Shown: in pieces, positions 1-16,409 of the stretch | How the letters are laid out: each line of letters opens with the position of its first letter | How positions within the stretch are numbered: the first letter of the stretch is position 1 | Assembly: GCA_016188625.1 (NCBI GenBank) | Contig: JACPHL010000012.1 | Span: 1 to 16,445, forward strand | DNA: 16,445 nucleotides | Source: Candidatus Rokuibacteriota bacterium | Lineage (GTDB): Bacteria; Methylomirabilota; Methylomirabilia; Rokubacteriales; JACPHL01 | Direction of reading: 5' to 3' | Notes under the pieces: generated by a model | Told to the model about the DNA's origin: nothing | Seen by the model: only the letters and a program-made list of their open reading frames with translations | Databases searched by the model: none | Translations under genes and position numbers: made by a program

Positions 1-686
1 ACGTCGGTCAGCAGCTCGTCGGCGGCCCGGACCAGCTCGGCCCGGCGCTCGCGCTCCTTGTAGGCCTTGGGGAGGCTCGCCCGGAGGAACTTGTCCACCC
101 GCCGGAGGATTGGCGAGAAGGCCCCGCCCGCGAAGCGCGGCTTGGCCTCGTAGAGGAGCCCCAGGGTGATGTAGGAGGGCGCCTCGAACTGGAAGGCGTA
201 CTCCTCCTCGGCCCCCTCCGCCTCCTCCTCGAGGAGGCCGCGGTACATCCGGATCACCTCGAGCGACTTCTCCTTCCGGTTGTGGGCCTTCTCGGTGTTG
301 AGGGCGAGGATCTGGTAGGCGACCTCGGGCTCGGGGATCAGGATGGCCGGGATCGCCTCGGCCTTGAGCTTGACCAGCGCGGCGCGGCGGTGGTTCCCGT
401 TGGGGGTCCAGTACTCCCCCGGTTTCGGGGAGACCACCACGACGGGGTCCACGAAGCGGTCGAGTTTCTTGATGACCTCCTGGAGGCGCTTGACGTGGGG
501 GGCCGAGAGGTCGCGCTGGTAGGGGGTCGGCTCGACCTTGTCGAGGGGGAGGAGGACGAAGAGCTGCCAGTGCTCCCCGACCGGGTCCCGGTAGGTCGCC
601 AGGACCTCGCCCCCGTCGGCCTCGACCCGCTCCGCCAGGGCCTTGAGGCTCGAGGGCGGCTCGTCCCCCTGCTGCCTCCTCGCCAT
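1..686 (-). CDS. ParB-like N-terminal domain protein (partial, 3' end outside window)
   Basis: The reading frame opens at ATG 686 on the minus strand and stays open to the window edge (about 228 codons), so the C-terminus is missing. Residues about 40-125 resemble a ParB/Spo0J N-terminal (sulfiredoxin-like fold) domain: a VEPTPYQRDL segment, a helix leading to VDPVVVVSP, then the NGNHRRAA motif at residues 96-103, equivalent to the GERRxxA nucleotide-binding box of ParB proteins. The following part, NTEKAHNRKEKSLEVIRMY, is helical and charged, as in ParB-like family members. There is no parA next to it in the window, so a role in chromosome segregation is not supported. Orphan ParB-like proteins can be CTP/ATP-binding switches or regulators. 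A promoter-like pair lies just upstream. The family call is fairly firm; the function is unknown. Confidence 0.8.
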   Translation of the reverse strand, partial: MARRQQGDEPPSSLKALAERVEADGGEVLATYRDPVGEHWQLFVLLPLDKVEPTPYQRDLSAPHVKRLQEVIKKLDRFVDPVVVVSPKPGEYWTPNGNHRRAALVKLKAEAIPAILIPEPEVAYQILALNTEKAHNRKEKSLEVIRMYRGLLEEEAEGAEEEYAFQFEAPSYITLGLLYEAKPRFAGGAFSPILRRVDKFLRASLPKAYKERERRAELVRAADELLTD

Positions 687-730
687 CGCCCCTCCGGGGC
701 CGGGCGCGTCCCGGGCCCCTCGCGGTCGAG

Positions 731-759
731 ATCGTAGCAGGAGGCGACCGCCCGCGCAA
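731..759 (-). promoter_or_regulatory. Predicted sigma70-type promoter of the ParB-like gene
   Basis: On the minus strand TTGCGC (759-754) and TACGAT (736-731) are separated by exactly 17 bases, and the ATG follows about 45 bases downstream at 686. The match to TTGACA/TATAAT is partial (3/6 and 4/6), so this is a prediction only. It would let the ParB-like gene be transcribed independently of the cysteine-rich gene upstream of it. Confidence 0.4.
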
Positions 760-764
760 CTGCG

Positions 765-791
765 TCAGAGGGGGGCAGCGCCCCCCTCTGA
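765..791. repeat. Perfect GC hairpin; core shared with 15956-15972
   Basis: An 11-bp arm at 765-775 (TCAGAGGGGGG) is the exact reverse complement of 781-791, and C776/G780 extends the stem to 12 bp with a 3-nt loop. It lies directly after the stop codon of the cysteine-rich gene at 793-1026 and could act as a terminator or 3'-end stabiliser. No U-tract follows on either strand, so a classical intrinsic terminator is not supported. The core GGGGGGCGCTGCCCCCC (minus-strand reading) recurs exactly at 15956-15972 after folK. Confidence 0.7.
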
Positions 792-792
792 A

Positions 793-1026
793 CTACCAGT
801 CGTCGCCGAGGGTGAGGACCATCCGGGCCCAGAGCCCGTCGCGCTCCCAGGCGGACCCGCCGTCCGCCATCCCCCAGGACCTGGTCTCCGCGCAGCGGGA
901 GCAGTAGGTGGCGCCCGGGAACTCGAACGCGCACGCCGGGCAGCACGGCCCCTTGCAGACGGTACACTGGAAGTCTTCGCGCCAGCCGTTCAGCGAGCTT
1001 TCGCACCCACCGCAGTATCTTTTCAT
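793..1026 (-). CDS. Small cysteine-rich (zinc ribbon-like) protein A
   Basis: This gene encodes 77 residues. The frame is open further upstream, but ATG 1026 is chosen because GAGGAG sits about 6 bases before it and the protein then begins directly with the cysteine motifs. Four CxxC pairs are visible: C5/C8, C21/C24, C29/C32 (with an extra C28) and C42/C45, which fits a double zinc ribbon binding two metal ions. The C-terminal 30 residues have no cysteine and are rich in W, D and G. The centre, CxxCxxPCCPAC, is shared with the protein at 2031-2201, so the two are paralogues. It lies 10 bases downstream of the isocitrate lyase/PEP mutase gene and is probably co-transcribed with it. The function is unknown. 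Confidence 0.75.
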   Translation of the reverse strand: MKRYCGGCESSLNGWREDFQCTVCKGPCCPACAFEFPGATYCSRCAETRSWGMADGGSAWERDGLWARMVLTLGDDW

Positions 1027-1036
1027 CGGCCTCTCC

Positions 1037-2005
1037 TCAGGGGGCTTCCCTCCCGTACCCGGCGGAGGCGCGATAGCGCTCACGCGTGGCCGGGATGTAG
1101 CGCGCCTCCAGCTCCTTCCAGTAGTCCACGCGGGCCATCTTGTGGTGGCTCTCCGTGGGGTGGCCCCCGGTCAGCTCCTCGAGGCGCCACTGGGCCCGCT
1201 CCTGGCCCTGGGCGAGGTCATCGAGGGCGTTCCAGACCGCGTACATGGCGGCGTGCGGCGCGTAGATGGTGATGAAGATGAACCGGTAGCCCAGCTCCCC
1301 GAGCTCCTTGAAGGTGAACGGCTCCGGGTCGGCGCTCCACCGGAAGGAGGACGAGTAGTTGAACGCCAGCGGGAGGTCCGGGTGGGTCCGGCGCATCGCC
1401 TCGGCGAAGGCCACGGCGGGGGCGCGCTCGGGCCCCGAGAGCTCGCACCACACCAGGTCCACCCCGAGGTCGGCGTAGGCTCGGCCCCGGCGGATGGCCT
1501 CGTCCAGGCTCCCCCCGACCGCCCCGTAGGCGTCGGTCCGGGCGATCAGCACGAAGTCCGGGTCCAGGCGGTCCCGCTCCTCCACGCCGGCCCTGAACTT
1601 GCCGACCGCCTCGTCGAAGGGGAGGATAGTCTTCCCGGCGATGTGGCCGCACCGCTTGGGGTACTGCTGGTCCTCCAGGTGGATCCCGGCCACCCCGGTC
1701 TTCACGAACTCCTGCACCGTCCTGAGGGTGTTGAGGGCGCTCCCGTAGCCGTCGTCGGCGTCGGCGATCACCGGCACCTCGACGGCGCCGGCGATGTGGG
1801 AGGCCATCCGGGTCACCTCGGTCATGGTCAGGAACCCCATGTCCGGCCAGCCGTGGAGCATGGAGACCGAGTAGCCGCTCATGTAGACGGCCTTGAGGCC
1901 CGCCCGCTCCGCGATCTGGGCGTCGAGGGGGGAGTAGACGCCCGAGGTGAAGACGTAGGGCTCCCGGGCCAGGAGCTCCCGGAAGCGACGCGCCTGGGTT
2001 CCCAT
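1037..2005 (-). CDS. Isocitrate lyase / PEP mutase superfamily enzyme
   Basis: This 322-residue TIM-barrel enzyme belongs to the isocitrate lyase/phosphoenolpyruvate mutase superfamily, whose members cleave or form C-C or C-P bonds next to a carboxylate using Mg2+. Seen in the sequence: DADDGYG (82-88, Mg2+-binding region), HLED (109-112), the catalytic-loop motif KRCGH (117-121) with Cys119, and ARTDA (155-159). FNYSSSFRW (215-223) is close to the isocitrate lyase NCSPSFNW motif. The N-terminal YMSGYSVSMLHGWPDMGFLTMTEV region instead resembles methylisocitrate lyase and PEP mutase. The length fits the short (about 300 aa) subfamilies rather than the 430-550 aa classical isocitrate lyases. 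The exact substrate (isocitrate, methylisocitrate or another 2-hydroxy acid) cannot be decided. ATG 2005 is preceded by GGAGGAGG. It lies between two paralogous cysteine-rich genes and opposite a LysR regulator. Confidence 0.88.
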   Translation of the reverse strand: MGTQARRFRELLAREPYVFTSGVYSPLDAQIAERAGLKAVYMSGYSVSMLHGWPDMGFLTMTEVTRMASHIAGAVEVPVIADADDGYGSALNTLRTVQEFVKTGVAGIHLEDQQYPKRCGHIAGKTILPFDEAVGKFRAGVEERDRLDPDFVLIARTDAYGAVGGSLDEAIRRGRAYADLGVDLVWCELSGPERAPAVAFAEAMRRTHPDLPLAFNYSSSFRWSADPEPFTFKELGELGYRFIFITIYAPHAAMYAVWNALDDLAQGQERAQWRLEELTGGHPTESHHKMARVDYWKELEARYIPATRERYRASAGYGREAP

Positions 2006-2030
2006 GACGGCTGATCCTCCTCCGGGTGCG

Positions 2031-2201
2031 TCATCCGGCGCGGGCCGTCCGGACGGCCTCGCGTCCGCGGCAGGCCAGGCACGTGGCGCGCCTCCCGTCG
2101 CGGTCCGAGCAGGCCGGGCAGCAGGGACGGGCGCACCGGGCGCACACCCAGCTCTCGTAGTGGCCTCTCAAGCGCTCGCCGCACCAGCACCGCTCGTCCA
2201 T
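2031..2201 (-). CDS. Small cysteine-rich (zinc ribbon-like) protein B
   Basis: This gene encodes 56 residues. ATG 2201 is chosen because a near-perfect Shine-Dalgarno (AAGGAGGT) lies a few bases upstream; a longer in-frame extension would translate this site. Metal-ligand candidates are C5/C7, C20/C23, C28/C31 (with C27) and C41/C44. The core VCARCARPCCPAC aligns with QCTVCKGPCCPAC of the protein at 793-1026. The stop lies 25 bases before the isocitrate lyase/PEP mutase start, so it is probably the first gene of a three-gene transcript (protein B, lyase, protein A). It could be a metal- or partner-binding accessory protein. No known family function is recognised. Confidence 0.75.
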   Translation of the reverse strand: MDERCWCGERLRGHYESWVCARCARPCCPACSDRDGRRATCLACRGREAVRTARAG

Positions 2202-2286
2202 CGGGACCTCCTTCCTCGCCTTCGCGGTCTTCGCGGTCGCCGCGCTGATCATGCCTCCAGCGTGCCCGCGGGATCGAGGCGGGGTC

Positions 2287-2364
2287 AAGACGATTGTCTT
2301 TATCGGGGCGATAGCGAACGCTGATGAGGCGGGGTTTATCGGGGTGATCAGGAACTCTGATCGG
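2287..2364. promoter_or_regulatory. Predicted LysR-type operator region with duplicated dyads
   Basis: This lies in the divergent region between the lyase cluster and the LysR gene. Two direct copies of TTTATCGGGGYGAT with partly conserved downstream sequence (2299-2328 and 2335-2364, about 23 of 30 positions equal, spaced 36 bp) are seen. Within copy 1, TATCGGGGCGATA is a T-N11-A dyad, the form known for LysR-type sites. Copy 2 contains GATCAG-5 nt-CTGATC (2346-2362), a perfect dyad. Another dyad, AAGAC-GATT-GTCTT, lies at 2287-2300. Binding by the neighbouring LysR protein is inference from position. Confidence 0.5.
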
Positions 2365-2386
2365 CGCCGAACTCGCGATTGCGGGG

Positions 2387-2392
2387 TATAAT
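2387..2392 (+). promoter_or_regulatory. -10 element TATAAT upstream of the LysR gene
   Basis: A perfect TATAAT lies 33 bases before the GTG start. No good -35 is present at 16-18 bp (GCGCCG instead), so expression may depend on a regulator bound at the repeats immediately upstream. Confidence 0.45.
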
Positions 2393-2424
2393 CGCCGGGA
2401 TCACGGCGGAGAGGGAGGGGCGGC

Positions 2425-3372
2425 GTGGAGATCGGTCAGGTCGAGGCCTTCGTCGCGGTCGTGACGTTCGGCGGCTTCCGCCGGGCGGCCGAGGCCCTCC
2501 GGCTCACGCAGCCGGCCGTGAGCGCCCGGATCAAGACGCTGGAAGGGGCGCTCGGCGTGGCGCTCTTCGAGCGGGGGCAGGCGGGGCTGGCGCTCTCAGC
2601 CGCGGGGCGGGCCCTCCGGCCGCACGCGGAGCAGCTCCTGCGCGCGGTCGCGCTCGCCCGCCAGGCGGTCCACGACCTGCGGCCGTCCAGCGGCGGCGCC
2701 CTCCAGATCGCGGCCTCGCTCTCCATCTGCACCTACCTCCTCCCGGACGTCCTCAAGCGCTTCCAGGCCGCCCGCCCGGCGGTCATGGTGACGGTCCGCT
2801 CGGGTCACTCCAAGGAGGTGCTGGAGATGGTCTTGCGGGGCGAGGCCGAGGTCGGTCTGGCGCGGTCGCTCCACCATCCGGCGGTGGAGACGGTGAGCCT
2901 GCGGGACGATCCCCTCCTCCTGGTCGTCCACCCCACCCATCCGGCGGCCCGGGCGCGTCGCGCCCGCCTCGAGGAGGTGGCGGACCGGCCGCTGATCTTC
3001 TTCGATCGCGGCTCGAGCGACTGGACGCTCAGCCACGGCCTCTTCCGGCGGGCCGGGCTGGTCCCGAACGTGGTGCTGGAGGTGGAGACGATCGAGACCG
3101 CGAAGCGGATGGTGGAGCGGGGGCTGGGGCTGGCCTTCCTCCCTCAACTGGCGGTCGCCGGCGACCTCCGCCGCGGGGCCCTCGTCGAGGTGAGGATCCT
3201 CGACGCCGAGCCTCTCAGCCGGAGCCTCGACGCGATCCATCCGCGGGACCGCTCGCTGAGCGAGGAGGCGCTGGCCCTCCTCAGGGTCCTCCGGGCCACG
3301 GTCAGCGAGGTGGATGCGGGCCGGAGGGGCGGCCGGCGCCGCGCCCGAGCCCGGCGGCGCGCCCCGCGCTGA
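2425..3372 (+). CDS. LysR-family transcriptional regulator
   Basis: This gene encodes 315 residues, the usual LysR length. Residues 1-60 form the winged helix-turn-helix, with the typical EAFVAVVTFGGFRRAAEALR and LTQPAVSARIKTLE segments and then LFER. Residues about 90-290 form the two-lobed periplasmic-binding-like effector domain (GALQIAASLSICTYLLPDVL, EVGLARS, LLLVVHPTHP, GLGLAFLPQLAV). The start is GTG 2425, with GGGAGGGG just upstream. The last 20 residues are very arginine-rich (GRRGGRRRARARRRAPR), unusual for the family, and end where the dispersed repeat at 3374-3555 begins. It is divergent from the lyase/zinc-ribbon cluster across a region with dyad repeats, so it is the likely regulator of that cluster and of itself. 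The effector is unknown. Confidence 0.92.
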   Translation: MEIGQVEAFVAVVTFGGFRRAAEALRLTQPAVSARIKTLEGALGVALFERGQAGLALSAAGRALRPHAEQLLRAVALARQAVHDLRPSSGGALQIAASLSICTYLLPDVLKRFQAARPAVMVTVRSGHSKEVLEMVLRGEAEVGLARSLHHPAVETVSLRDDPLLLVVHPTHPAARARRARLEEVADRPLIFFDRGSSDWTLSHGLFRRAGLVPNVVLEVETIETAKRMVERGLGLAFLPQLAVAGDLRRGALVEVRILDAEPLSRSLDAIHPRDRSLSEEALALLRVLRATVSEVDAGRRGGRRRARARRRAPR

Positions 3373-3373
3373 G

Positions 3374-3555
3374 CGCCCCGCGGGGGGCATCAGCCCCTCG
3401 CTCCACACGCTCCGCGGCGCACCCGTCAGTGGCTCGCCGGGCGGGGCCCCTCCTCTTTGTCATCCGCTCGCCTGTCGGCTTCCCCACCCGGCTCGCTCAC
3501 GACGGGGACCCGCGCCGCTCCGCTTACCGTTCCGCTCGGGGCCGACGCCTCCCCC
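3374..3555 (-). repeat. Dispersed intergenic repeat, copy 1 (inverted relative to 12072-12258)
   Basis: The reverse complement of this stretch matches 12072-12258 over nearly its whole length, roughly 85-90% by eye, with the main divergence in a central block of about 30 bp. Shared parts include AAGCGGAGCGGCGCGGGTCC, GTGAGCGAGCCGGGTGGGGA and GTGCGCCGCGGAGCGTGTGG. The ends are roughly inverted versions of each other (GGAGGCGTCGGCCCC at one end, GGGGGGCATCAGCCCC at the other), giving a MITE-like form, but no target-site duplication could be established. It fills the gap between the LysR stop and the rpoA stop and contains no credible gene. Confidence 0.75.
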
Positions 3556-4566
3556 TCAGGTCCAGGCCGCCGAAGGGGGCTGGCGCGGTGATCTTGGCGC
3601 AACGCTCTGACCGGTCCGCTTCGAGCGGCGGCTTCGCCGCCGCAACCTTGGGGGGAGGTTTGGGAACTTGATCTCGTTCAGGGACTTCTTGCCGAAGTTC
3701 TTGGTCTTGAGCAGCTCGGCCTCGGACTTCTGGACCAGATCGGCGATGTTGCGGATGTTGGCCGTCTTGAGGCAGTTGGCCGCCCGGACGGAGAGCTCCA
3801 GCTCCTCCACGCTCCTGAAGAGGTTGTCGCTGAGCTCGAACGTCGGCGTCTCGACCGGGACCTCCTCCGCGGGCTCGAGCCCGGTCGGGAAGCGGCAGAG
3901 GAGGTCGAAGTGGTCCTCGAGGATCAGGGCGGCCTCGCCCATGGCGTCGTCGGGGGCCACGCTCCCGTTGGTCCAGATCTCCAGCGTCAGCCGCTCGTGC
4001 CCCGGCTTCCGCCGGGCAGGGTCCACCTGGAAGTTCACGCGCTGGATCGGCGAGAAGTCGGCGTCCATGAGGAGGGCGTTGACCGGGAGGGACTCGAGCT
4101 CGCGCTTGTCGGCCGGCACGTAGCCGCGCCCCTTCTCCAGGCAGACCTCCATCTCGAGGACCCCGTCCCTGTCGAGGGTCGCCAGGACCTGGCCCGGGGT
4201 CAGGATCTCCACCTGGGCGTCGGGCTCGAAGGCCTCGGCCTTGACCGGCTTGGGGCCGGTGGCCTTGAGACGGATCAGCCGGCTCCGCTCCCCGTGGAGC
4301 TTGAAGACCACCTTGCGGAGGTTGGCGAGGATGTCCAGGGTGTCCTCGATGACGCCCGGGAGGTGGGAGAAGCCGTGGAGCACCCCCTCGATCTTTGCCC
4401 ACGTCGGCGCGGCCCCCTCGACGGAGGATAGGAGCACCCGCCTGAAGGCGTTCCCGACCGTCAGGGCGAAGCCCGGCTCAAAGGGCTCGATGACCACCTT
4501 CCCGTAGTCTGGTTTGAGGGTCTGCCACTCGTGTTTCTTCGGAAGCTGATACGTCTGGGTGCTCAT
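3556..4566 (-). CDS. rpoA: RNA polymerase subunit alpha with abnormal C-terminal tail
   Basis: This gene encodes 336 residues. The N-terminal assembly domain is clear ([44 protein letters not shown]). The C-terminal DNA/activator-binding domain carries [12 protein letters not shown] with the Arg and Asn equivalent to E. coli R265/N268, then [19 protein letters not shown] 4566 is preceded by AGGAGG. After NEIK (residue 300) the usual end (E-[IV]-L-x-x-[MR]-G-L-S-L-G-M) is absent. It is replaced by 36 residues, FPNLPP then an Arg/Ser/Pro-rich stretch, encoded by the hairpin repeat at 3609-3656 and sequence beyond. None of the three frames restores the normal end. The gene stands alone, without rpsM/K/D or rplQ, and divergent from ruvX. 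It may be a second rpoA copy or a relocated sole copy. Confidence 0.9.
3609..3656 (-). repeat. Hairpin module, copy 1 (second copy at 16076-16123)
   Basis: Read on the minus strand this is CCCCCCAAGGTTGCG, then an 8-bp perfect stem GCGGCGGC-GAA-GCCGCCGC (3643-3625), then CGCTCGAAGCGGACC. The same outer sequence occurs at 16076-16123 around a different stem that is also perfectly paired. A second, mutually exclusive small hairpin CCGCT-CGA-AGCGG overlaps the 3' arm. This copy lies inside the abnormal C-terminal coding tail of rpoA. Confidence 0.7.
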
Positions 4567-4617
4567 GCGTCCTCCTGGACTCGGGTTCTGACCGCCGGGG
4601 CTCCGGCGCGACCTCCC

Positions 4618-4623
4618 ATTATA
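4618..4623 (-). promoter_or_regulatory. -10 element TATAAT upstream of rpoA
   Basis: A perfect TATAAT on the minus strand lies about 50 bases before the rpoA ATG. The matching -35 position has TTCCCT, a weak match. This supports rpoA having its own promoter, back to back with the ruvX promoter. Confidence 0.45.
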
Positions 4624-4658
4624 GTCGGATCGCCCGCCGAAGGGAAGCACGACTCTGG

Positions 4659-4687
4659 TTGACAGCCCTCGCCGGGACCGGTAAAAT
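4659..4687 (+). promoter_or_regulatory. Strong sigma70-type promoter for ruvX and following genes
   Basis: TTGACA (4659-4664), a 17-base spacer and TAAAAT (4682-4687) give a near-consensus housekeeping promoter 43 bases before the ruvX start. It is followed by an AT-rich leader that stands out from the GC-rich surroundings. It could drive ruvX-mltG-plsC-argH. Confidence 0.75.
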
Positions 4688-4730
4688 CAAACAGAATTTA
4701 TGTTTTTTGGGGATTTCTGAGGTACCCTTG

Positions 4731-5168
4731 ATGCGCGTCTTGGCCCTTGATGTAGGGGATCGGAGCATCGGCTTGGCCGTCTCCGACGAGCTCGGGCTCA
4801 CGGCCCAGGCCCTCGAGACGCTGACGCGTCGCGGACTTCGGGCCGATCTGGCCGCCCTTCGACGGATCGTTGAGGAGCGCCAGATTGACGAGGTCGTGGT
4901 CGGCCTCCCCCTCCGGCTCGACGGCGGCATCGGTCCCCAGGCCGAGAAGGTCCAGGGCCTGGTCGAGGCCCTCCGCACCGTCCTGCCGGTCCCGGTCTGC
5001 CTCTGGGACGAGCGGCTCACCACCCAGGCCGCCGAGCGGGCCCTCCTCGAGGGGGGGGTCCGGCGGGCCCGCCGGAAGCAGGTGGTGGACCAGGTCGCCG
5101 CCGCGCTGATCCTCCAGGGCTACCTCGACCGGAAGCGCCATGGCAGGGACGCCGGGACCGAACGGTAG
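4731..5168 (+). CDS. ruvX: Holliday junction resolvase-like RuvX/YqgF family
   Basis: This gene encodes 145 residues, the usual size for the RNase H-fold YqgF/RuvX family, linked to Holliday junction resolution and to 5' processing of pre-16S rRNA. Motifs seen: LALDVGDRSIGLAVSDE (4-20) with Asp7, IDEVVVGLPLRLDG (52-64), WDERLTT (92-98) and VDQVAAALILQGYL (119-131) with Asp120, which together supply the acidic metal-binding residues. ATG 4731 is chosen because the conserved MRVLALD start begins there and TGAGGT lies upstream; upstream in-frame codons overlap the promoter. Its last 29 bases overlap mltG in another frame, suggesting translational coupling. The ruvX-mltG pairing is common in bacteria. 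Confidence 0.93.
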   Translation: MRVLALDVGDRSIGLAVSDELGLTAQALETLTRRGLRADLAALRRIVEERQIDEVVVGLPLRLDGGIGPQAEKVQGLVEALRTVLPVPVCLWDERLTTQAAERALLEGGVRRARRKQVVDQVAAALILQGYLDRKRHGRDAGTER

Positions 5169-6183
5169 GTCGGGCTCCTGGCGCGGCGTCCTGGCGGGCG
5201 GGCTCGCCTTCCTCCTCGCCCTGGTGGCGCTGACCGAAACCCTCCGGCTCTTCATCGCGGGGCCCGCGGTCCTCTATCGCGCCCGGACCATCGAGATCCC
5301 GCCCCAGATGGGGGTCCTCGAGCTGGCCCGCCACCTGGAGGATCAGGGGGTCATCCGCAACCGTTTTACCTTCGTCGCGCTTGCCCTGCTCCGCGGGACC
5401 GCCCGCACCCTCAAGGCGGGGGAGTACGAGGTCCCGCCCCGGACCAACGCCCTCGCGGTCCTCGCGCTCCTCGAGCTCGGGAAGGTCAAGCCGCACCTCC
5501 TGGTGCTCCCGGAGGGGTTCACCGTGCGCGAGCTGGCCCGGCAGCTGGAGGCCGAGGGGCTCGCCCCCTCCGAGGAGGTGCTCGCGGCCAGCCGCGACCG
5601 CCGGGTTCTCCAGATGCTCGGGATCGAGGCCGACAGCCTGGAGGGCTACCTCTTCCCCGACACCTACCGGGTCTTCAAGGGGATGCATCCGGGGGAGATC
5701 CTGGCCCGGATGGTCCAGCGCCTCCGGGAGGTCGTGACCCCGGACCTGATCGAGAAGGCCCAGGCCCAGGGGCTCGACCTCCACGGGCTCCTGACCCTGG
5801 CCTCGATCGTGGAGCGCGAGGCCGTCCTCCGCGAGGAGTTCCCCCTCATCGCCGCGGTCTTCTGGAACCGGCTCAAGCGGGACATGCTGCTCCAGGCGGA
5901 CCCGACGGTCGCCTACGCCGTGGGCAAGGACGGTCGGGCCCCCACCCGCGCCGACCTCATGGTGGATTCCCCGTACAACACCTACAAGTACCGCGGCCTC
6001 CCGCCCACCCCCATCGGCAATCCGGGCAAGGCCGCGATCCTGGCGGTCCTCAACCCCGCCAAGGTCCACTACCTCTACTTCGTCTCCGTCGACGACCGCC
6101 GGCACCACTTCTCCGCGACCCTGGACGAGCACAACGCGGCCGTGGCCCGCTATCGGCTCTTCCGGGCCCGCGGGCTCCTCTAA
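5140..6183 (+). CDS. mltG: Endolytic murein transglycosylase MltG (YceG-like)
   Basis: This gene encodes 347 residues. MltG is an inner-membrane lytic transglycosylase that cuts nascent peptidoglycan glycan strands and so limits their length. One N-terminal membrane helix is visible at about residues 17-40 (VLAGGLAFLLALVALTETL), giving an N-in/C-out protein. A LysM-like subdomain spans about 50-130. The YceG catalytic domain follows with EGYLFPDTY (168-176), the catalytic ASIVERE (221-227, Glu225), FWNRL (241-245), LQADPTV (251-257) and SPYNTYKYRGLPPTPIGNPG (277-296). ATG 5140 overlaps ruvX by 29 bases, and TAA 6181-6183 is followed closely by plsC. All motifs are intact and no truncation is seen. 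Confidence 0.95.
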   Translation: MAGTPGPNGRSGSWRGVLAGGLAFLLALVALTETLRLFIAGPAVLYRARTIEIPPQMGVLELARHLEDQGVIRNRFTFVALALLRGTARTLKAGEYEVPPRTNALAVLALLELGKVKPHLLVLPEGFTVRELARQLEAEGLAPSEEVLAASRDRRVLQMLGIEADSLEGYLFPDTYRVFKGMHPGEILARMVQRLREVVTPDLIEKAQAQGLDLHGLLTLASIVEREAVLREEFPLIAAVFWNRLKRDMLLQADPTVAYAVGKDGRAPTRADLMVDSPYNTYKYRGLPPTPIGNPGKAAILAVLNPAKVHYLYFVSVDDRRHHFSATLDEHNAAVARYRLFRARGLL

Positions 6184-6227
6184 CCATGTGTCCCGCTATA
6201 ACACCACGCGGCGCGGGGACGACCGGG

Positions 6228-6953
6228 ATGAGGGCGAGGGACGAGCGGGCGGTGGCGAGGGCTCCCGTCAATGGTGGGGCGACGGCCCCGGAGGCGGTGC
6301 CCGCTCTCTACGGCCTCCTCCGCCGGCTCACGCGCCCGCTCCTCCGCTCCCTGTTCCAGTTCCGGGTCCTCGGGCTCGAACAGGTCCCGGGGAGCGGGCC
6401 GTTCATCGTCGCCGCCAACCACGCCAACTACCTCGACGCGGTGGTCCTCGGGGCGGCCCTGCCGCGCTGGATCGCCTTCCTGGTCACGCCGTGGGTCTAC
6501 CGGGCCACCCCGCTCCACCCGTCCTTCCACCGCCACGTGGGCTCGATCCCGATCAACCTCGAACGCCCGGACCCCGGCGCGATCCGGCGGGCCCTCCGGG
6601 TGCTCGAGGGGGGGGGCGTGGTGGGGATCTTCCCCGAGGGTCCTTTCGGCCTGAACGGGCGCCTGATCGAGGGCCAGCCCGGGGTGGCCCTCCTCGCCCT
6701 CCGCTCCGGGGTTCCGGTGATCCCGGCGGCGATCGGGGGGACCTACGAGGCCCTGCTGGACCGGCGGTTTTACATCCCGAGGTGGACACCGCTCCAGGTC
6801 CGCTTCGGCGCGCCGCTTACCTTCCACCGCCCCGGGTCGAGGCCGCTGACGCAGCGGCTCCGTGAAGAGGTGACCCGCCGGATCATGGGGGAGATCGCCC
6901 GCCTCCTCGCTGCCGACGGCGACGCCCCGGGGCCGCCCGGGCCGAGGCGATGA
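6228..6953 (+). CDS. 1-acyl-sn-glycerol-3-phosphate acyltransferase family (PlsC-like)
   Basis: This gene encodes 241 residues from ATG 6228. The PlsC/LPLAT family transfers an acyl group to lysophosphatidic acid or a related acceptor at the inner membrane. The catalytic block I NHANYLD (H65-x4-D70) is clear, followed by GSIPINLERPDPGAI (glycerophosphate-binding region), the GIFPEGPFG block (FPEG 135-138) and VPVIPAAIGGTYEAL. An in-frame ATG at 6186, 2 bases after the mltG stop, is an alternative start. It has no Shine-Dalgarno, and the extra 14 codons use AT-rich triplets unlike the gene, so 6228 is preferred. The TGA overlaps the argH ATG (ATGA), so the two are translationally coupled. The acceptor substrate is not certain. 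Confidence 0.88.
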   Translation: MRARDERAVARAPVNGGATAPEAVPALYGLLRRLTRPLLRSLFQFRVLGLEQVPGSGPFIVAANHANYLDAVVLGAALPRWIAFLVTPWVYRATPLHPSFHRHVGSIPINLERPDPGAIRRALRVLEGGGVVGIFPEGPFGLNGRLIEGQPGVALLALRSGVPVIPAAIGGTYEALLDRRFYIPRWTPLQVRFGAPLTFHRPGSRPLTQRLREEVTRRIMGEIARLLAADGDAPGPPGPRR

Positions 6954-8347
6954 CCGCCACCCCTCCCCCCGGCGCGCCCTGGGGCGGTCGCTTCGTCCAG
7001 CCCACCGACCCGGCGGTCCGGGCCTTCACCGCATCCCTGCCCTTCGACCACCGCCTCTGGCCGTACGACCTCGAGGGGAGCGAGGCCTGGGCGCGGGCGC
7101 TGGCCAAGGGGGGGGTCCTGACCGAGGCCGAGCTGGAGGTCCTCCTCAAGGGCCTCGCCGCGATCCGGGAGGAGCTGGAGCGCGGCGCCTTCCCCTTCCG
7201 GCCGGAGCTCGAGGACATCCACATGAACATCGAGCGCCGCCTCCAAGAGAAGGTGGGCGAGGTCGGGGGGAAGCTCCACACCGGGCGCTCCCGGAACGAC
7301 CAGGTGGCGCTCGACATGCGCCTCTACCTCCGGGCCGAGATCCGCGCCATCCGCCAGGCCATCCGCGACTGCCAGGCCGCCCTCGTCGCCCAGGCCGAGA
7401 CCCACCCGGACGCCCCGATGCCGGGCTACACCCACCTCCAGCGCGCCCAGCCGATCCTCCTGGCGCACCACCTCCTGGCCTACGTCTTCATGCTCGAGCG
7501 CGACCGCGAGCGCTACCGGGACTGCCTGGGGCGGGTGGAGCGGCTTCCCCTCGGGGCCGGGGCGCTGGCGGGGACGACGGTCCCGGTGGACCGGCACGAG
7601 CTGGCGCGGGGCCTGGGCTTCGCGCTGCCCGCCCCCAACAGCGTCGATGCCGTCTCCGACCGCGACTTCGCCCTGGAGTTCCTCGGGACCTCGGCGATCC
7701 TGGCCATGCACCTCTCCCGCCTCGGGGAGGAGCTGGTCCTCTGGGCGAGCCAGGAGTTCGGGTTCGTGGAGCTCCCCGACGCCTTCGCCACCGGCTCGTC
7801 CCTGATGCCGCAGAAGAAGAACCCGGACGTGGCCGAGCTGATCCGCGCCAAGGCCGGGCGGGTCTACGGGGACCTGGTGGCCCTCCTCACGGTGATGAAG
7901 GGGCTCCCCCTCGCCTACCAGCGCGACATGCAGGAGGACAAGGAGGCCTTCTTCGACGCCGCCGACACCGTGAAGGCGTCCCTGGGGGTCCTCGCCCCGT
8001 TCCTCCGCGCCCTCGTCTTCCGGACCGACCGTCTCCGCGCCGCGGCCGGGGAGGGGTACACGACGGCCACCGATCTCGCCGACTACCTGGTCCGCCGGGG
8101 AACCCCGTTCCGCCAGGCCCACGAGCTGACCGGGCGGATCGTCCGCTACGCCATCGAGCAGGGCCGGCCGCTCGCCGGGCTCACCCTGGAGGAGCTCCGC
8201 CGGTTCTCGCCCCTCGTCGGCCCCGACGTCCACCAGGCCCTGACCGTCGAGGCGTCCCTGGCCGCCCGCGAGGTCTATGGCGGGACCGGGCCGGAGGCCG
8301 TCCGCCGGGCGCTTGCCGAAGCCCGGGCCCTCCTGGAGGCCCCATGA
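6950..8347 (+). CDS. argH: Argininosuccinate lyase
   Basis: This gene encodes 465 residues, the full family length. ArgH converts argininosuccinate to arginine and fumarate, the last step of arginine biosynthesis, and is a cytoplasmic homotetramer. Motifs seen: WGGRF (11-15), the GKLHTGRSRNDQV segment (107-119), GYTHLQRAQP (159-168, His162) and the fumarase/aspartase-superfamily signature GSSLMPQKKNPD (282-293) with the catalytic Ser in the flexible loop. The C-terminal DLADYLVRRGTPFR segment is also present. The ATG overlaps the plsC stop by 4 bases. It is the last gene of the ruvX-mltG-plsC-argH run and is followed by about 280 bp of repeat-rich intergenic DNA before the lipoprotein gene. 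Position next to lysA/dap genes is a known linkage in several phyla. Confidence 0.97.
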   Translation: MTATPPPGAPWGGRFVQPTDPAVRAFTASLPFDHRLWPYDLEGSEAWARALAKGGVLTEAELEVLLKGLAAIREELERGAFPFRPELEDIHMNIERRLQEKVGEVGGKLHTGRSRNDQVALDMRLYLRAEIRAIRQAIRDCQAALVAQAETHPDAPMPGYTHLQRAQPILLAHHLLAYVFMLERDRERYRDCLGRVERLPLGAGALAGTTVPVDRHELARGLGFALPAPNSVDAVSDRDFALEFLGTSAILAMHLSRLGEELVLWASQEFGFVELPDAFATGSSLMPQKKNPDVAELIRAKAGRVYGDLVALLTVMKGLPLAYQRDMQEDKEAFFDAADTVKASLGVLAPFLRALVFRTDRLRAAAGEGYTTATDLADYLVRRGTPFRQAHELTGRIVRYAIEQGRPLAGLTLEELRRFSPLVGPDVHQALTVEASLAAREVYGGTGPEAVRRALAEARALLEAP

Positions 8348-8599
8348 GGGGCGGACGGCCTCGGGCGGTGACCCTCTCGGGCTCCGTCGGCCTCCCCGCG
8401 GCGGACTACCGGTGCCCCTCCGGGCACCTCGCGCGGCTCCGCTGCGGGACCGCACATCGGGGACCGCGGTCCCGCTCCCTCGCCCCGGGCTCGGGCCGCT
8501 CCGCCGCGCTGAGTCCGCCTGCGGCTCAGCCGAAACGTCGCCCTCAAGGGTCACACGCCGAGGCCGGGCATGAAGTAGTTCTGCCTCGAGCCCCCGCGC
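8348..8599. repeat. Hairpin-rich intergenic region between argH and the lipoprotein gene
   Basis: An open frame crosses this block, but its product is low complexity (R, P, S, A, G) and the real lipoprotein start is further on, so it is read as non-coding. Three self-complementary elements are visible. They are GGTGCCC-CTCC-GGGCACC (8411-8428), the palindrome GGGACCGCGGTCCC (8460-8473), and GCTGAG/CTCAGC around CCGC-CT-GCGG with one bulged T (8508-8530). They could stabilise the argH mRNA end or be remnants of a repeat family. No promoter is recognised. Confidence 0.55.
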
Positions 8600-8625
8600 G
8601 GGAGGCGTCGGCCCCGAGCGGAACG
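8600..8625 (+). repeat. Solo end of the dispersed 185-bp repeat
   Basis: These 26 bases are identical to one end of the repeat copy at 3374-3555 (read on the minus strand) and nearly so to the end at 12074-12099. GGAGGCGTCGGCCCCGAGCG is the core. The rest of the repeat is missing. It ends only 6 bases before the lipoprotein ATG, so it supplies most of the leader, including the poor Shine-Dalgarno region. Confidence 0.65.
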
Positions 8626-8631
8626 AGAAGC

Positions 8632-9702
8632 ATGAAACGCGGCGTCCTGATCGTCGTCCTCGTCGGCCTGGCGCTCGTCGCCTGCGGCAGGCGCGGCCCC
8701 CTGGTCGCCCCCGAGCGGCGCCTCCCCGCCGCGGTCCAGGACCTCGCCGTCGCGGTCGAGGGCCCGGCGGCCGTCCTGACCTGGACCCTCCCCACCAAGC
8801 GCGTGGACGGGAGCCCCCTGAAGGACCTCGCGCGGCTCGATGTCTTCCGCCGCGAGGAGCCGGGCGAGGGGCCGCCGCGCCCCGCGGTGGCGAGCGGGCG
8901 CGGGGTGGCCGGCTTCGAGCGGGTCGCCGCCGTGAGGGTCGAGGAGCCGGCCCCGGCACGGGTCGAGGGCGGTCGCGCGACCGTCACCGACGCCGAGGGG
9001 ATCGAGTTCGGCCGGCGCTACACCTACGTCGTCCTCTCGGTCGATGCCCGGGGGCGGATGAGCCCGCCGTCGAATCGCGCGACCGTGGCCTTCCTGGCCG
9101 CGCCGCGGCCGCCCGAAGGGCTCCGGGCCACCGCGGGGGATCGCGAGGTCCGGCTCGCCTGGCAGCCGCCGGCGACCCTGGAGGACGGCTCCCCGGTCCC
9201 GGGCCCGCTCGTCTACCAGGTCTTCCGGAGCGACAGCCCCGACCGGCCGGCAACCCGCCCCCTCAACCCCGAGCCGCTCACGAGCCCGGCCTTCACCGAC
9301 CTCGGGGTCCGGAACGACGTGACCTACGTCTACACCGTCCGCGCGCTTCTCGGCCCCGGGGGGCCGGTGGGCCGGGCCTCCGAGGCGGTCCAGGCGACCC
9401 CCGAGGACCTGACCCCGCCCGCGGCCCCGCGGAACCTGTCGGCGGTCGCGGCCCCGGGCGCGATCCTCCTGGCCTGGGCGGCGGGGACCGAGCCGGACCT
9501 GGCCGGCTACCACGTCTACCGCTCCACCGCCCCGGGCCGGGGGTACGAGCGGCTCACCGCCGCGCCCCAGAGCGAGATCACCTATCAGGACACGGCCGTG
9601 ACGAAGGGGCGCACCTACCACTACGTCGTGACGGCCGTGGACCGTTCCCGCCGCGCCAACGAGAGCGTCCCGTCGTCGGAGGCGAGCGCGACGGTGCGCT
9701 GA
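8632..9702 (+). CDS. Lipoprotein with LptM-like N-terminus and three FN3-like domains
   Basis: This gene encodes 356 residues. A lipoprotein signal peptide is clear: MKRG, hydrophobic VLIVVLVGLALV, then the lipobox LVAC with Cys18 as the acylation site, so it is a membrane-anchored lipoprotein. Directly after the Cys comes GRRGPLVAPERRLP, close to the CGxKGPLYxP motif of LptM/YifL, the small lipoprotein that aids LptD assembly. Three fibronectin III-like repeats follow (about 33-155, 158-256 and 262-356), each with a W near the start (LTWTLP, LAWQPP, LAWAAG) and a Y-rich end (YTYVVLSVDA, YVYTVRAL, YHYVVTAVD). ATG 8632 is chosen over upstream starts because it gives the signal peptide. Its position between argH and lysA matches where LptM-like genes often sit. 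The function is inferred and not certain. Confidence 0.82.
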   Translation: MKRGVLIVVLVGLALVACGRRGPLVAPERRLPAAVQDLAVAVEGPAAVLTWTLPTKRVDGSPLKDLARLDVFRREEPGEGPPRPAVASGRGVAGFERVAAVRVEEPAPARVEGGRATVTDAEGIEFGRRYTYVVLSVDARGRMSPPSNRATVAFLAAPRPPEGLRATAGDREVRLAWQPPATLEDGSPVPGPLVYQVFRSDSPDRPATRPLNPEPLTSPAFTDLGVRNDVTYVYTVRALLGPGGPVGRASEAVQATPEDLTPPAAPRNLSAVAAPGAILLAWAAGTEPDLAGYHVYRSTAPGRGYERLTAAPQSEITYQDTAVTKGRTYHYVVTAVDRSRRANESVPSSEASATVR

Positions 9703-9708
9703 CGCGCC

Positions 9709-9737
9709 TTGACGGCGCCCGCGTCCCGTGCTAGGGT
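9709..9737 (+). promoter_or_regulatory. Predicted promoter of the lysA-dap gene run
   Basis: TTGACG (9709-9714), a 17-base spacer and TAGGGT (9732-9737) lie 25 bases before the lysA ATG, in a short gap that also holds the least GC-rich stretch here (AAAAACTTTT). The -35 is good and the -10 is weak. Confidence 0.45.
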
Positions 9738-9762
9738 CTGAAAAACTTTTCGCGGAGTGAAG

Positions 9763-11016
9763 ATGGAGGAGTTCGCCTACCGCGACGGCCAGCTCTGCTG
9801 CGAGGAGACCCCCCTCGAGGCCGTCGCCGAGAGCTGGGGCACCCCGACCTACGTCTACTCGCGGCGCGCCATCCTGGGCACCTACGAGGGCTACGAGCGG
9901 GCGCTGGCCGGCCTCCCGCACCTGGTCTGCTACGCCGTCAAGGCCAACGGCAACCTGGCGCTCCTCTCGCTCCTGGCCGGGGCCGGGGCCGGGGCCGACG
10001 TGGTCTCGGGCGGCGAGCTGTTCCGTGCCCTCCGGGCCGGGTTCGATCCCCAGCGGATCGTCTTCGCCGGCGTGGGGAAGACCCGGGAGGAGATCCGGGA
10101 GGCCCTCAAGGCCGACGTCCTCTGCCTCAACGTCGAGTCGGCGGCGGAGCTGGCCGTCGTGGACGAGGTGGCGCGGGCCGAGGGGGTCCGGGCGCGGGTG
10201 GCGATCCGGGTGAACCCGGACATCGATCCCCAGACCCACCCCTACATCGCCACCGGGCTCCGGACCTCCAAGTTCGGGATCGCCCACGACGAGGCGCTGG
10301 ACATCTACCGCGCGGCCGCCCGCCTCGGCGGGATCGAGGTCGTCGGGGTCCACATGCACATCGGCTCCCAGCTCCTCAAGGTCTCCCCGATCGCGGACGC
10401 CCTGGAGCGGGTGGCCGAGCTGGTCCAGGCGCTCCGGGGCGAGGGGTTCGCCCTCCGCTACGTGGACATCGGGGGCGGGCTCGGGATCCGCTACAAGGAC
10501 GAGGCCCCGCCGAGCCACGAGGAGTACGTCCGCGCCCTCCGCCGGACCCTCGAGGCCCTGGGCGTCACGGTCATCCTCGAGCCGGGGCGCTCCATCGTCG
10601 GGAACGCCGGGGCCCTCCTGACCCGGGTCCTCTACCGGAAGCGCACCGGGGGGAGGCAGTTCGTGGTGGTGGATGCGGCCATGAACGACCTCATCCGCCC
10701 GAGTCTCTACAACGCCTACCACGAGATCCTCCCGGTCCGGAAGGCCGCCGGGCCGCGGGAGACGGTGGACGTGGTGGGCCCGGTCTGCGAGTCGGGGGAC
10801 TTCCTCGCCAAGGAGCGCGAGCTGCCCGTCCTGCCGGAGGGGGCGCTCCTGGCCCTGATGTCGGCGGGCGCCTACGGCTTCGCCATGGCCTCGAACTACA
10901 ACGCCCGGCCGCGGCCGGCGGAGGTGCTGGTCGCGGGCGAACGCTCCGCCCTGGTCCGGCGGCGGGAGAGCTACGAGGACCTGCTCGCCGGGGAGCTGCT
11001 CGCCGACGACCTGTAA
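9763..11016 (+). CDS. lysA: Diaminopimelate decarboxylase
   Basis: This gene encodes 417 residues. LysA decarboxylates meso-diaminopimelate to L-lysine with PLP, the last step of lysine synthesis. It is a fold-type III (alanine racemase-like) enzyme. Motifs seen: the PLP lysine in CYAVKANGN (Lys60), VGVHMHIGSQL (194-204), the phosphate-binding DIGGGLG (235-241), EPGRSIVG (273-280) and the CESGDFLA segment (342-349), whose Cys and Glu help form the active site across the dimer. ATG 9763 is preferred to GTG 9757 because GGAG lies 5 bases upstream. It is the first gene of the lysA-dapA-dapB-FAH-dapL-folB-folK series. Its TAA is followed by a frame with no further stop up to dapA, which lies in the same frame. 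Confidence 0.97.
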   Translation: MEEFAYRDGQLCCEETPLEAVAESWGTPTYVYSRRAILGTYEGYERALAGLPHLVCYAVKANGNLALLSLLAGAGAGADVVSGGELFRALRAGFDPQRIVFAGVGKTREEIREALKADVLCLNVESAAELAVVDEVARAEGVRARVAIRVNPDIDPQTHPYIATGLRTSKFGIAHDEALDIYRAAARLGGIEVVGVHMHIGSQLLKVSPIADALERVAELVQALRGEGFALRYVDIGGGLGIRYKDEAPPSHEEYVRALRRTLEALGVTVILEPGRSIVGNAGALLTRVLYRKRTGGRQFVVVDAAMNDLIRPSLYNAYHEILPVRKAAGPRETVDVVGPVCESGDFLAKERELPVLPEGALLALMSAGAYGFAMASNYNARPRPAEVLVAGERSALVRRRESYEDLLAGELLADDL

Positions 11017-11061
11017 ACAGGGTGTCCGAATAAGGCGTTTGGGGGGAGGCAGGCCCCGAAG

Positions 11062-11109
11062 CCTTTCGCCAGCGGCGCAGCCGGACTGGCGAAAGGTGGG
11101 CTTCGCCCA
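11062..11109. repeat. Two adjacent hairpins between lysA and dapA
   Basis: Hairpin 1 (11062-11096) has perfect 11-bp arms (CCTTTCGCCAG and CTGGCGAAAGG) and an inner CGGC-GCA-GCCG stem with a 2-nt bulge. Hairpin 2 (11097-11109) is TGGGC-TTC-GCCCA. There is no T-tract, so termination is doubtful; they may set relative lysA/dapA mRNA stability or be repeat DNA. The sequence just before, TTGGGGGGAGG, also appears at the rpoA tail. Confidence 0.6.
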
Positions 11110-11110
11110 G

Positions 11111-11144
11111 GGCCGTCGGACGGGGTCCCCGCCGGGCCCGAAGT
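11111..11144 (+). repeat. Repeat module abutting the dapA start (shared with 15991-16026, inverted)
   Basis: The 19 bases ACGGGGTCCCCGCCGGGCC (11120-11138) recur exactly, inverted, at 15998-16016, and flanking GGCCGT and GAAG are shared on either side. The similarity runs to the first bases of the dapA GTG codon, so the module appears to have replaced the normal 5' end of dapA. Confidence 0.6.
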
Positions 11145-11997
11145 GGTCACCCCCTTCCGGGACGGCCAGGTGGACGAGGCCAAGCTCCGGGAGCTGGTGG
11201 AGCTCCACGTCGCCCACGGGACCGACGCCCTGGTCCCCTGCGGCACCACCGGCGAGTCCCCGACGCTCTCCCACGAGGAGCACAAGCGGGTCATCGAGGT
11301 GGTCATCGAGGCCGCGGCCGGGCGGATCCCGGTGGTGGCCGGGACCGGCTCCAACTCGACCGCCGAGGCGATCGACATGACCGTGCACGCGGCCAAGGCC
11401 GGGGCCGCCGGGAGCCTCCAGGTCGCGCCCTACTACAACAAGCCGACCCAGCAGGGGCTCTACGAGCACTTCAAGGCGATCGCCGAGGCGGCGGGGATCC
11501 CCCTCATCATCTACAACATCCCGGGGCGGACCGGGGTCAACATCCTCCCCGAGACCCTCGCCCGGCTGGCCGAGGTCCCCACCATCGTGGGGGTCAAGGA
11601 GGCCTCGGGGAACCTGGAGCAGATGACCCAGGTGATCCTGGCCTGCGGCCCCGAGGTCACGGTCCTCTCGGGCGACGACACCCTGACCCTCCCCCTGATG
11701 GCCGTCGGGGGGCGCGGGGTGATCTCGGTCATCGCCAACTTCCTCCCCCGCGAGACGGCGGAGCTGACCCACGCCGCCCTGGACGGGGACTGGAAGCGGG
11801 CGCGGGAGCTCCACCTCCGGCTCTTCCCGGTCTCGCAGGCCATGTTCTTCGAGACCAACCCGATCCCGGTGAAGGAGACCATGGCGATGCTCGGGATGCT
11901 CCGGGCCGAGTGGCGCCTCCCGATGTGCCCCATGAGCGAGGCCAACCGCCAGCGGCTCCGCGCCGTCCTCGCCAAGGCCGGGATCCTCAAAGGCTAG
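11143..11997 (+). CDS. dapA: 4-hydroxy-tetrahydrodipicolinate synthase, short N-terminus
   Basis: This gene encodes 284 residues. DapA condenses pyruvate with aspartate semialdehyde, the first committed step to DAP and lysine, through a Schiff base on a TIM barrel. Motifs seen: CGTTGES (33-39), YNIPGRTGVN (124-133, catalytic Tyr124) and GVKEASG (150-156, Schiff-base Lys152). Equivalent E. coli residues (T44, Y133, K161) are each about 9 higher, so the usual first 8 or so residues (MFxGxxxAL) and half of the first barrel strand are missing. GTG 11143 is the only standard start codon in frame after the lysA stop, and it has no clear Shine-Dalgarno. The upstream frame reads VPAGPE into VVTPF, encoded by repeat DNA. 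Either the start is truly shortened, or a non-standard start is used. Confidence 0.93.
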   Translation: MVTPFRDGQVDEAKLRELVELHVAHGTDALVPCGTTGESPTLSHEEHKRVIEVVIEAAAGRIPVVAGTGSNSTAEAIDMTVHAAKAGAAGSLQVAPYYNKPTQQGLYEHFKAIAEAAGIPLIIYNIPGRTGVNILPETLARLAEVPTIVGVKEASGNLEQMTQVILACGPEVTVLSGDDTLTLPLMAVGGRGVISVIANFLPRETAELTHAALDGDWKRARELHLRLFPVSQAMFFETNPIPVKETMAMLGMLRAEWRLPMCPMSEANRQRLRAVLAKAGILKG

Positions 11998-12071
11998 CCA
12001 GGGGGCCTCCACTGATCACGCTGATGCTGCTTCGCCGGCCCCACCTTGGGGGGAGCGACGGCCTCCCGGCC

Positions 12072-12258
12072 CGCGGGGAGGCGTTGGTCCCGAGCGGAAC
12101 GTTAAGCGGAGCGGCGCGGGTCCCCGTCGTGAGCGAGCCGGGTGGGGAAGCCGGCTCACGGGCTCAGAACGAAGGAGGAGGGGCCCCGCGCGGCGAGCCA
12201 CAGACGGGTGCGCCGCGGAGCGTGTGGAGCGAGGGGCCGACGCCTCCCGCGCGGGGCG
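12072..12258 (+). repeat. Dispersed intergenic repeat, copy 2 (inverted relative to 3374-3555)
   Basis: This copy matches the reverse complement of 3374-3555 nearly end to end, with a different central block (about 12155-12180). Its two ends are imperfect inverted repeats: GGGGAGGCGTTGGTCCC at the left, and the reverse complement of the right end reads CGGGAGGCGTCGGCCCC. The size (about 187 bp), terminal inverted repeats and lack of coding capacity give a MITE-like picture. It occupies most of the 280-bp gap between dapA and dapB; the remaining 12001-12071 holds only a TTGGGGGGAG motif shared with other repeat sites. Confidence 0.75.
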
Positions 12259-12277
12259 GAGCCCCCCTCCGAGTGTG

Positions 12278-13081
12278 ATGATCGACGTGGTGGTGGCCGG
12301 CGCGGCCGGCCGGATGGGGAGCCGGATCGTCGCCCTGCTCAGGGAGACGGAGGACCTCCGGCTGGCCGCCGCCCTCGAGCGCCCGGGCCACCCGGCCCTC
12401 GGCCGGGACGCCGGCGAGGTGGCGGGGGTCGGGCACGCGAATGTCCCCATCACCGCCGAGGTCGAGGCCGCCCTCGGGCAAGGCCGCGTCCTCGTCGAGT
12501 TCACGACCCCGGAGGCGAGCCTCGAGCACCTCCGGCTCGTCGCCGCCGGGGGCGGGCGCGCGGTCATCGGGACCACCGGCTTCGCGAAGGCCCAGCTCGC
12601 CGAGATCGAGATCCTCGCCCGCCGCGTCCCCGTCCTCCTCTCCCCCAACATGAGCGTGGGGGTGAACCTCGCCTTCCGGCTCCTCGCCCAGATGGCGGGC
12701 GTGCTGGGCGACGACTACGACGTCGAGATCACCGAGATCCACCACCGGGGGAAGAAGGACGCCCCGAGCGGGACCGCGCTCAGGATGGCCGAGGTGATCG
12801 CCCAGGCCCTCGGGCGGGACCTCGGGAAGGTCGCCGTCTACGGCCGCCAGGGGATGCCGGGCGAGCGGACCCGGAGCGAGATCGGGATCCAGGCCCTCCG
12901 GGCCGGGGACGTGGTCGGCGAGCACACGGTGGTCTTCGGCGGCCTCGGGGAGCGCCTCGAGCTGACCCACCGCGCCCACTCCCGCGACACCTTCGCGCGC
13001 GGGGCCCTCCGGGCCGTCCGGTTCATCGCCTCGGCCGCGCCGGGCCTCTACTCGATGCAGGACGTCCTGGGCCTCAAATGA
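12278..13081 (+). CDS. dapB: 4-hydroxy-tetrahydrodipicolinate reductase
   Basis: This gene encodes 267 residues, the usual length. DapB reduces the DapA product to tetrahydrodipicolinate with NAD(P)H, as a cytoplasmic tetramer. The Rossmann glycine motif GAAGRMG (8-14), VEFTTPEA (73-80) and IGTTGF (97-102) bind nucleotide. NMSVGVN (124-130) and the catalytic EIHHRGKKDAPSGTA (153-167, His155/His156/Lys159) define the active site. ATG 12278 follows GTG 12275, which could also be used; the Shine-Dalgarno is weak (a lone GAG). Because copy 2 of the dispersed repeat lies directly upstream, translation initiation or a promoter may be affected. The FAH gene follows after 16 bases. Confidence 0.96.
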   Translation: MIDVVVAGAAGRMGSRIVALLRETEDLRLAAALERPGHPALGRDAGEVAGVGHANVPITAEVEAALGQGRVLVEFTTPEASLEHLRLVAAGGGRAVIGTTGFAKAQLAEIEILARRVPVLLSPNMSVGVNLAFRLLAQMAGVLGDDYDVEITEIHHRGKKDAPSGTALRMAEVIAQALGRDLGKVAVYGRQGMPGERTRSEIGIQALRAGDVVGEHTVVFGGLGERLELTHRAHSRDTFARGALRAVRFIASAAPGLYSMQDVLGLK

Positions 13082-13097
13082 CCTCCGGGGAGCTGCC

Positions 13098-13865: not shown

Positions 13866-13873
13866 GGGCGCCC

Positions 13874-15428: not shown

Positions 15429-15429
15429 G

Positions 15430-15945: not shown

Positions 15946-15955
15946 GTGCCTCGGA

Positions 15956-16065
15956 GGGGGGCGCTGCCCCCCAACCGAACACCCCACCGGGCCTTCCGGC
16001 CCGGCGGGGACCCCGTTCGAACGGCCCTCCCGGCGAAGCCGGGGCGTTCGCCCTTCGGCGAACGC
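15956..16065. repeat. Array of consecutive hairpins after folK
   Basis: Five stem-forming elements follow each other with few bases between them. They are 15956-15972 (GGGGGGC-GCT-GCCCCCC), 15982-16009 (11-bp stem with one mismatch, loop TTCC), 16013-16024 (palindrome CCGTTCGAACGG), 16030-16042 (CCGGC-GAA-GCCGG) and 16044-16065 (9-bp stem GCGTTCGCC, loop CTTC). The first shares its core with 765-791. The second and third contain the inverted copy of the module upstream of dapA (15991-16026). The array could protect or terminate the folK transcript, or be a nest of repeat insertions. No gene is seen. Confidence 0.7.
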
Positions 16066-16075
16066 ATCGGGCCTC

Positions 16076-16348: not shown

Positions 16349-16350
16349 TC

Positions 16351-16385: not shown

Positions 16386-16409
16386 TACATCGGCAACCGC
16401 TGGCACGCC

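Follow-up and report, generated by a model that had tools for sequence, protein, structure and literature searches.

The alpha subunit gene of RNA polymerase, rpoA, found on a 16,445-nucleotide stretch of a Candidatus Rokuibacteriota genome (hereafter the window; GCA_016188625.1, contig JACPHL010000012.1, positions 1 to 16,445) raises the question of what has become of the conserved end of its C-terminal domain (CTD) and of what this means for the polymerase. The initial annotation had noted that this end is missing in all frames after GKKSLNEIK and that the protein instead runs for 36 residues through hairpin-repeat DNA. Both observations are borne out. The 336-residue translation resembles RpoA up to K300 (E. 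coli K304), the normal ending GEMGLSLGM occurs in no frame of the window, and the residues following GKKSLNEIK are dispersed-repeat DNA read as exactly 36 codons (3559-3666), with a stop codon at 3556-3558. Codon-position GC switches abruptly where the tail begins, from 0.66/0.38/0.96 in the body to 0.61/0.78/0.75, so the tail is unlike old coding sequence. The protein matches Pfam profiles PF01000, PF01193 and PF03118, the last over profile positions 8-62 of 67, and scores above the cut-off of the NCBIfam rpoA model TIGR02027. No terminator-like site was found on the rpoA strand in a promoter and terminator scan.

Table 1. Coordinates of the features discussed; positions refer to the window unless a locus is named.
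Feature	Position	Strand	Basis
LysR-family gene, stop codon directly beside the far side of the repeat, with nothing left of the rpoA 3' end in between	2425..3372	+	
Core of the dispersed intergenic repeat	3374..3554	.	>35 copies in the assembly
Standalone rpoA paralog, alpha-NTD intact, alpha-CTD intact to K300	3556..4566	-	Translation, Pfam, NCBIfam TIGR02027
36 repeat-encoded residues and stop, replacing the ILGEMGLSLGM... end	3556..3666	-	Translation, relatives, composition
Order-wide hairpin element GCGGCGGC-gaa-GCCGCCGC, adjoining an AACCT/AGGTT stem, read here as rpoA	3608..3666	.	Order-wide matches, paired stem changes
Sole alpha-CTD found in the assembly	3667..3831	-	Single PF03118 match in the genome; residue comparison
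ruvX and mltG, divergent neighbours of the window rpoA	4731..6183	+	Names by inspection of translations
Operonic rpoA of the same genome (G000, contig C291): 237 aa, no CTD, 10-residue deletion of the beta-contact loop	L041:3404-4117		

The window gene belongs to a group of standalone rpoA genes that lie outside the ribosomal operon, as described below. An alignment of this group gives ILGEMGLSLGM or a close form at the C-terminal end of all 48 standalone relatives, including the closest one, which shares 77% identity (G003). Left out of this comparison were two loci, L096 and L097, whose frames break earlier: in these two Rokubacteria the standalone rpoA ends within the CTD in a frameshift-like manner, and at L096 a hairpin element lies a short way downstream of the broken gene. 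Since the relatives compared, G003 among them, have the normal end, the tail appears to be specific to its own genome or lineage; this genome belongs to the order Rokubacteriales and is the sole member of its family among the genomes compared. We rejected the idea of a lineage-wide feature, as the tail is absent from all these relatives, and that of a frameshift or alternative frame, as the normal end lies in no frame of the window and a degenerate search of the rest of the assembly with two mismatches returned control-level matches only.

The source of the tail is a repeat that spans 3373-3671 and is matched by a near full-length copy at 88% on contig C132 and by others at about 80% on C57 and C96. 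It is a mosaic of an approximately 180-bp core, a spacer of about 54 bp and a hairpin element. Copies of the core mostly share 88-99% identity, and many lie at contig ends. The initial annotation had the protein end at the border of a 185-bp repeat, which agrees with this core, the stop codon lying 2 bp away. The 22 copies examined lie between genes according to a composition-based gene call, mostly 3 to about 100 bp past a stop codon. A second copy in the window, at 12026-12257 and in opposite orientation, fills the gap between dapA and dapB; its core lies at 12075-12257. Matches to the repeat, mostly to its hairpin part, were found in 50 of the 59 genomes of the order. The hairpin element itself is abundant across Rokubacteriales (for example window 3608-3666 and L148-L156), and its stem is preserved by paired changes (GCGGCGGC/GCCGCCGC, GCGCCGGC/GCCGGCGC, GCGCGGGC/GCCCGCGC). 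We argue for a structure from these paired changes only, because single-sequence RNA folding of the region was not more stable than that of shuffled sequences (z = -0.9). The element may act in 3' end processing or termination, or may be mobile.

REP, BIME and ERIC-like intergenic repeats and Rickettsia palindromic elements are short dispersed palindromes located between genes and sometimes read into proteins. With its many dispersed intergenic copies and conserved hairpin, the repeat described here is REP/BIME-like. It differs from these families in being a mosaic, in replacing a C-terminus rather than forming an in-frame insert, and in lacking any Rfam match (3300-3750 searched, up to E = 1). 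Among the copies examined in the window's genome, four have a gene ending inside the repeat, namely rpoA, hisC on contig C331, an ABC transporter ATPase gene and mutY, so that protein ends made from the repeat recur in this genome. The hisC gene (L202:1093-2307) lacks the last of its 349 profile positions, about 54 in all, and has in their place about 80 residues encoded by the repeat and read in the same frame as the rpoA tail; a second hisC is found on contig C107.

The initial annotation proposed that a repeat insertion had overwritten the 3' end of the gene. A dispersed repeat does replace this end, but "insertion" is too simple a description: no rpoA 3' remnant lies beyond the repeat, and therefore either a deletion accompanied the insertion or the core hides an assembly join. 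The tail itself could also be an assembly artefact, with rpoA wrongly linked to some other copy of the repeat and the real gene having a normal end. A core present in more than 35 copies, many of them matching at contig ends, invites such an error, short-read assemblies can misjoin within a 180-bp repeat, and two genes, rpoA and hisC, share like ends. Yet the critical rpoA/hairpin join, at about 3666-3671, falls beyond the near-identical core, and among the loci of this genome that were compared no copy exceeds 91% over the length of the hairpin part. A query covering 3400-4100 gave no second match in the genome that crosses the junction, and the missing rpoA 3' end turned up on no other contig. 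A misjoin inside the core, moreover, would alter the LysR side and not the rpoA tail. We judge an assembly artefact of the gene end quite improbable. With the junction outside the near-identical core and no alternative contig, the rpoA/repeat junction and the tail are likely real, while LysR and rpoA may have become neighbours through a misjoin within the core, since repeat copies often sit at contig ends.

A search of the genome for another rpoA, suggested by the initial annotation, changes what the tail means. The overwritten gene does encode an RNA polymerase subunit, but a second, standalone alpha and not the rpoA of the ribosomal operon, which had been missed. The operonic gene lies on contig C291, has ordinary coding composition, and is followed by rplQ, which starts 14 bp past its stop codon. 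Its product terminates in an acidic linker, EEEDEEESEGARLGRADE, and has no match to PF03118 in a Pfam search; its 10-residue deletion removes the HEFS loop discussed below. Because a hairpin element of the window repeat's kind lies downstream of rplQ and the operonic alpha clusters with Rokubacteriales in the tree, C291 fits as part of this genome. Both alphas carry the two N-terminal matches of a bacterial RpoA (PF01193 and PF01000) and neither a complete CTD, the match being partial in the window copy and absent from the operonic one. The repeat-tailed CTD is thus the only alpha-CTD found in this assembly, which is 84% complete in 344 contigs, so that a further rpoA could be missing from the data.

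This remaining CTD is shortened in a defined way. All residues of the 265 determinant that we checked are present (R265, N268, C269, N294, G296, K298, S299 and E302 in E. coli numbering), and the second half of helix 4 is gone together with the segment that carries L307, L312, L314 and G315, positions that vary little or not at all among relatives. AlphaFold, run with 40 aligned sequences, places the last CTD helix at 293-299 and gives the tail a pLDDT of about 48; for a normal relative, modeled by the same procedure from an alignment without the window protein, the helix spans 293-305 with block-mean pLDDT of 86-88. The predicted reduction from 13 to 7 residues agrees with the earlier suggestion that the last helix region is altered. 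The remainder of the CTD is predicted with a pLDDT of about 80-88 in both proteins alike. The window CTD would thus keep its DNA- and activator-binding face on a shortened helix 4 without its hydrophobic end (L307, L312, L314). By this model the domain may be weakened, and we infer that it still works at least in part; the tail is basic and probably unstructured.

Two alphas are not peculiar to this genome. With few exceptions, Rokubacteriaceae genomes carry a pair of full-length rpoA genes: one belongs to an rpsM-rpsK-rpsD-rpoA-rplQ operon, and the other is standalone near mltG, which accompanies the standalone gene at 36 of 40 Rokubacteria loci. Nearly all genomes of other Methylomirabilota have a single rpoA match. 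In a tree of 61 proteins, the standalone copies (support 100/100) and the operonic copies (100/99) form sister clades (96/88), separate from Nitrospira and from other Methylomirabilota. Because both alphas fall in one order-specific clade, we conclude from the tree that they arose by duplication inside the order and not by transfer. The candidate donor considered, Nitrospira, whose RpoA shares 51% identity with the standalone protein, finds no support in the tree. A genome from a third family (G002, 73% complete) shows the operonic copy only, placed at the base of the operonic clade with the ancestral motif kept. Another genome of the order (G028, 97% complete) gave no rpoA or rplQ match, probably reflecting a missing contig. 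In a different family of the class, one genome (G078, locus L183) carries a pair of rpoA genes on a single contig, separated by about 3 kb; both have the beta-contact motif, and the pair looks like a separate duplication.

The two alphas differ at sites reported to matter for contacts with beta and beta'. Segment 65-75 of E. coli alpha is reported to contact beta, and K86 and position 200 to contact beta', assignments taken from the Francisella study and from E. coli work that it cites (PMC3294249). In an alignment that includes E. coli RpoA, whose numbering we use, a HEFS-type motif in the beta-contact segment is present in 48/48 standalone, 35/35 Nitrospira and 16/16 other Methylomirabilota proteins and in none of the 29 operonic copies; the window protein has HGFS where HEFS is expected. 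Reciprocally, K86 is replaced by arginine in 47 of 48 standalone proteins and K200 in all 48, whereas lysine is mostly kept in the operonic copies, including both positions in that of the window's genome. T196, D197 and the tyrosine at 198 are lost in standalone copies only. Sites of the CTD that are conserved in the outgroups are lost at 17/40 in operonic and 2/40 in standalone copies (Fisher p = 1e-4, with sites treated as independent though they are not truly so); the comparison of the beta segment by itself is small (4/7 vs 0/7, p = 0.07). R45 is kept by both alphas, so the orientation proposed here rests on the 65-75 loop and on conservative lysine-to-arginine changes.

These reciprocal changes suggest an oriented pair in which the standalone alpha would face beta and the operonic one beta'. 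We therefore infer a heterodimer and its orientation, and consider it fairly probable that, after duplication within Rokubacteriales had given two alpha subunits, the standalone copy became the beta-side alpha and the ribosomal-operon copy the beta'-side alpha in an oriented heterodimer. A regulatory CTD would then be needed on one alpha only. In the window's genome the operonic alpha has shed its CTD and the remnant of its beta-contact loop, and the standalone alpha has kept its CTD with the last ~30 residues swapped for the dispersed intergenic repeat. We advance more tentatively, as a possibility somewhat short of even, that the pair is obligate, with an NTD-only scaffold alpha and one regulatory CTD per enzyme, on the beta side and with a basic repeat-encoded tail.

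Either copy might instead be decaying. If the standalone gene were a pseudogene, the polymerase would use a homodimer of the CTD-less operonic alpha, whose gene, in a ribosomal operon, is presumably expressed; the repeat does remove conserved core residues of the CTD, and it also cuts short a hisC with a paralog elsewhere in this genome. Against this, the standalone gene reads without interruption through 300 codons, with a third-position GC of 0.96 and 77% identity to G003, and the gene is retained throughout the order; the operonic alpha, without its beta-contact loop, should by analogy with E. coli bind beta poorly as a homodimer. We hold this reading to be unlikely. The converse, in which the standalone alpha forms a working homodimer with two repeat-tailed CTDs, would account for the loss of both CTD and conserved 10-residue loop from the operonic copy, whose CTD is already diverging across the order. 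It is very improbable in our estimation, as the operonic gene still has an open frame, a coding composition and its position in the operon, and its product retains K86 and K200, both changed in the standalone copy.

Taken by itself, the repeat tail is a lineage-specific accident, of moderate interest as an example of how intergenic repeats can rewrite conserved protein ends, and a smaller matter than the order-wide split into two specialised alphas, which seems to have gone furthest in the window's genome and fits the loss of the operonic CTD there. This split is the part worth testing: an order with reciprocally specialised alphas, including an operonic alpha without a CTD, would open the transition from homodimer to asymmetric pair to experiment, and a single CTD, if true, raises the question of how activators work. 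In the library searched, we found no paper that combines rpoA and Rokubacteria.

Descriptions of bacterial RNA polymerase start from a homodimer of two identical alphas; the exception that has been tested is Francisella, where the beta and beta' contact sites served to argue for an oriented alpha pair (PMC3294249). Francisella RpoA1/RpoA2 (PMC3294249; solved chains 6wmp A and B) resemble the Rokubacteriales pair in that a lineage-specific duplication gave rise to rpoA genes that are not identical, only one of them lying within the ribosomal operon, and that differ at beta- and beta'-contact sites; the two origins are independent. In Rokubacteriales one paralog has lost beta-contact residues and the second has changes at beta'-contact positions, though R45 is kept in both. 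The Francisella alpha1, encoded in the operon, is the copy facing beta, and the R45 change is found in alpha2 (PMC3294249), whereas in Rokubacteriales it is the operonic copy that lacks the motif of the 65-75 loop and the standalone one that is likely on the beta side; the window's genome further differs in having one alpha entirely without a CTD. Chloroflexus and Streptomyces avermitilis have paralogous rpoA genes too, but in those of Chloroflexus the dimerisation and beta/beta' regions are reported to be free of drastic substitutions (PMC3294249), unlike the reciprocal changes seen here. Asymmetric alpha-like pairs are treated as an archaeal and eukaryotic step in a 2026 review (PMC13374769): in Rpo3/Rpo11 and Rpb3/Rpb11 it is the larger partner that binds the beta-like subunit, the smaller amounting to little more than a dimerisation domain (PMC3294249, PMC13374769). 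The Rokubacteriales alphas are bacterial and of recent common origin, making the likeness an analogy and not a homology of the pair; an NTD-only scaffold joined to a CTD-bearing alpha, if true, would be a bacterial parallel to the asymmetry of Rpb3/Rpb11.
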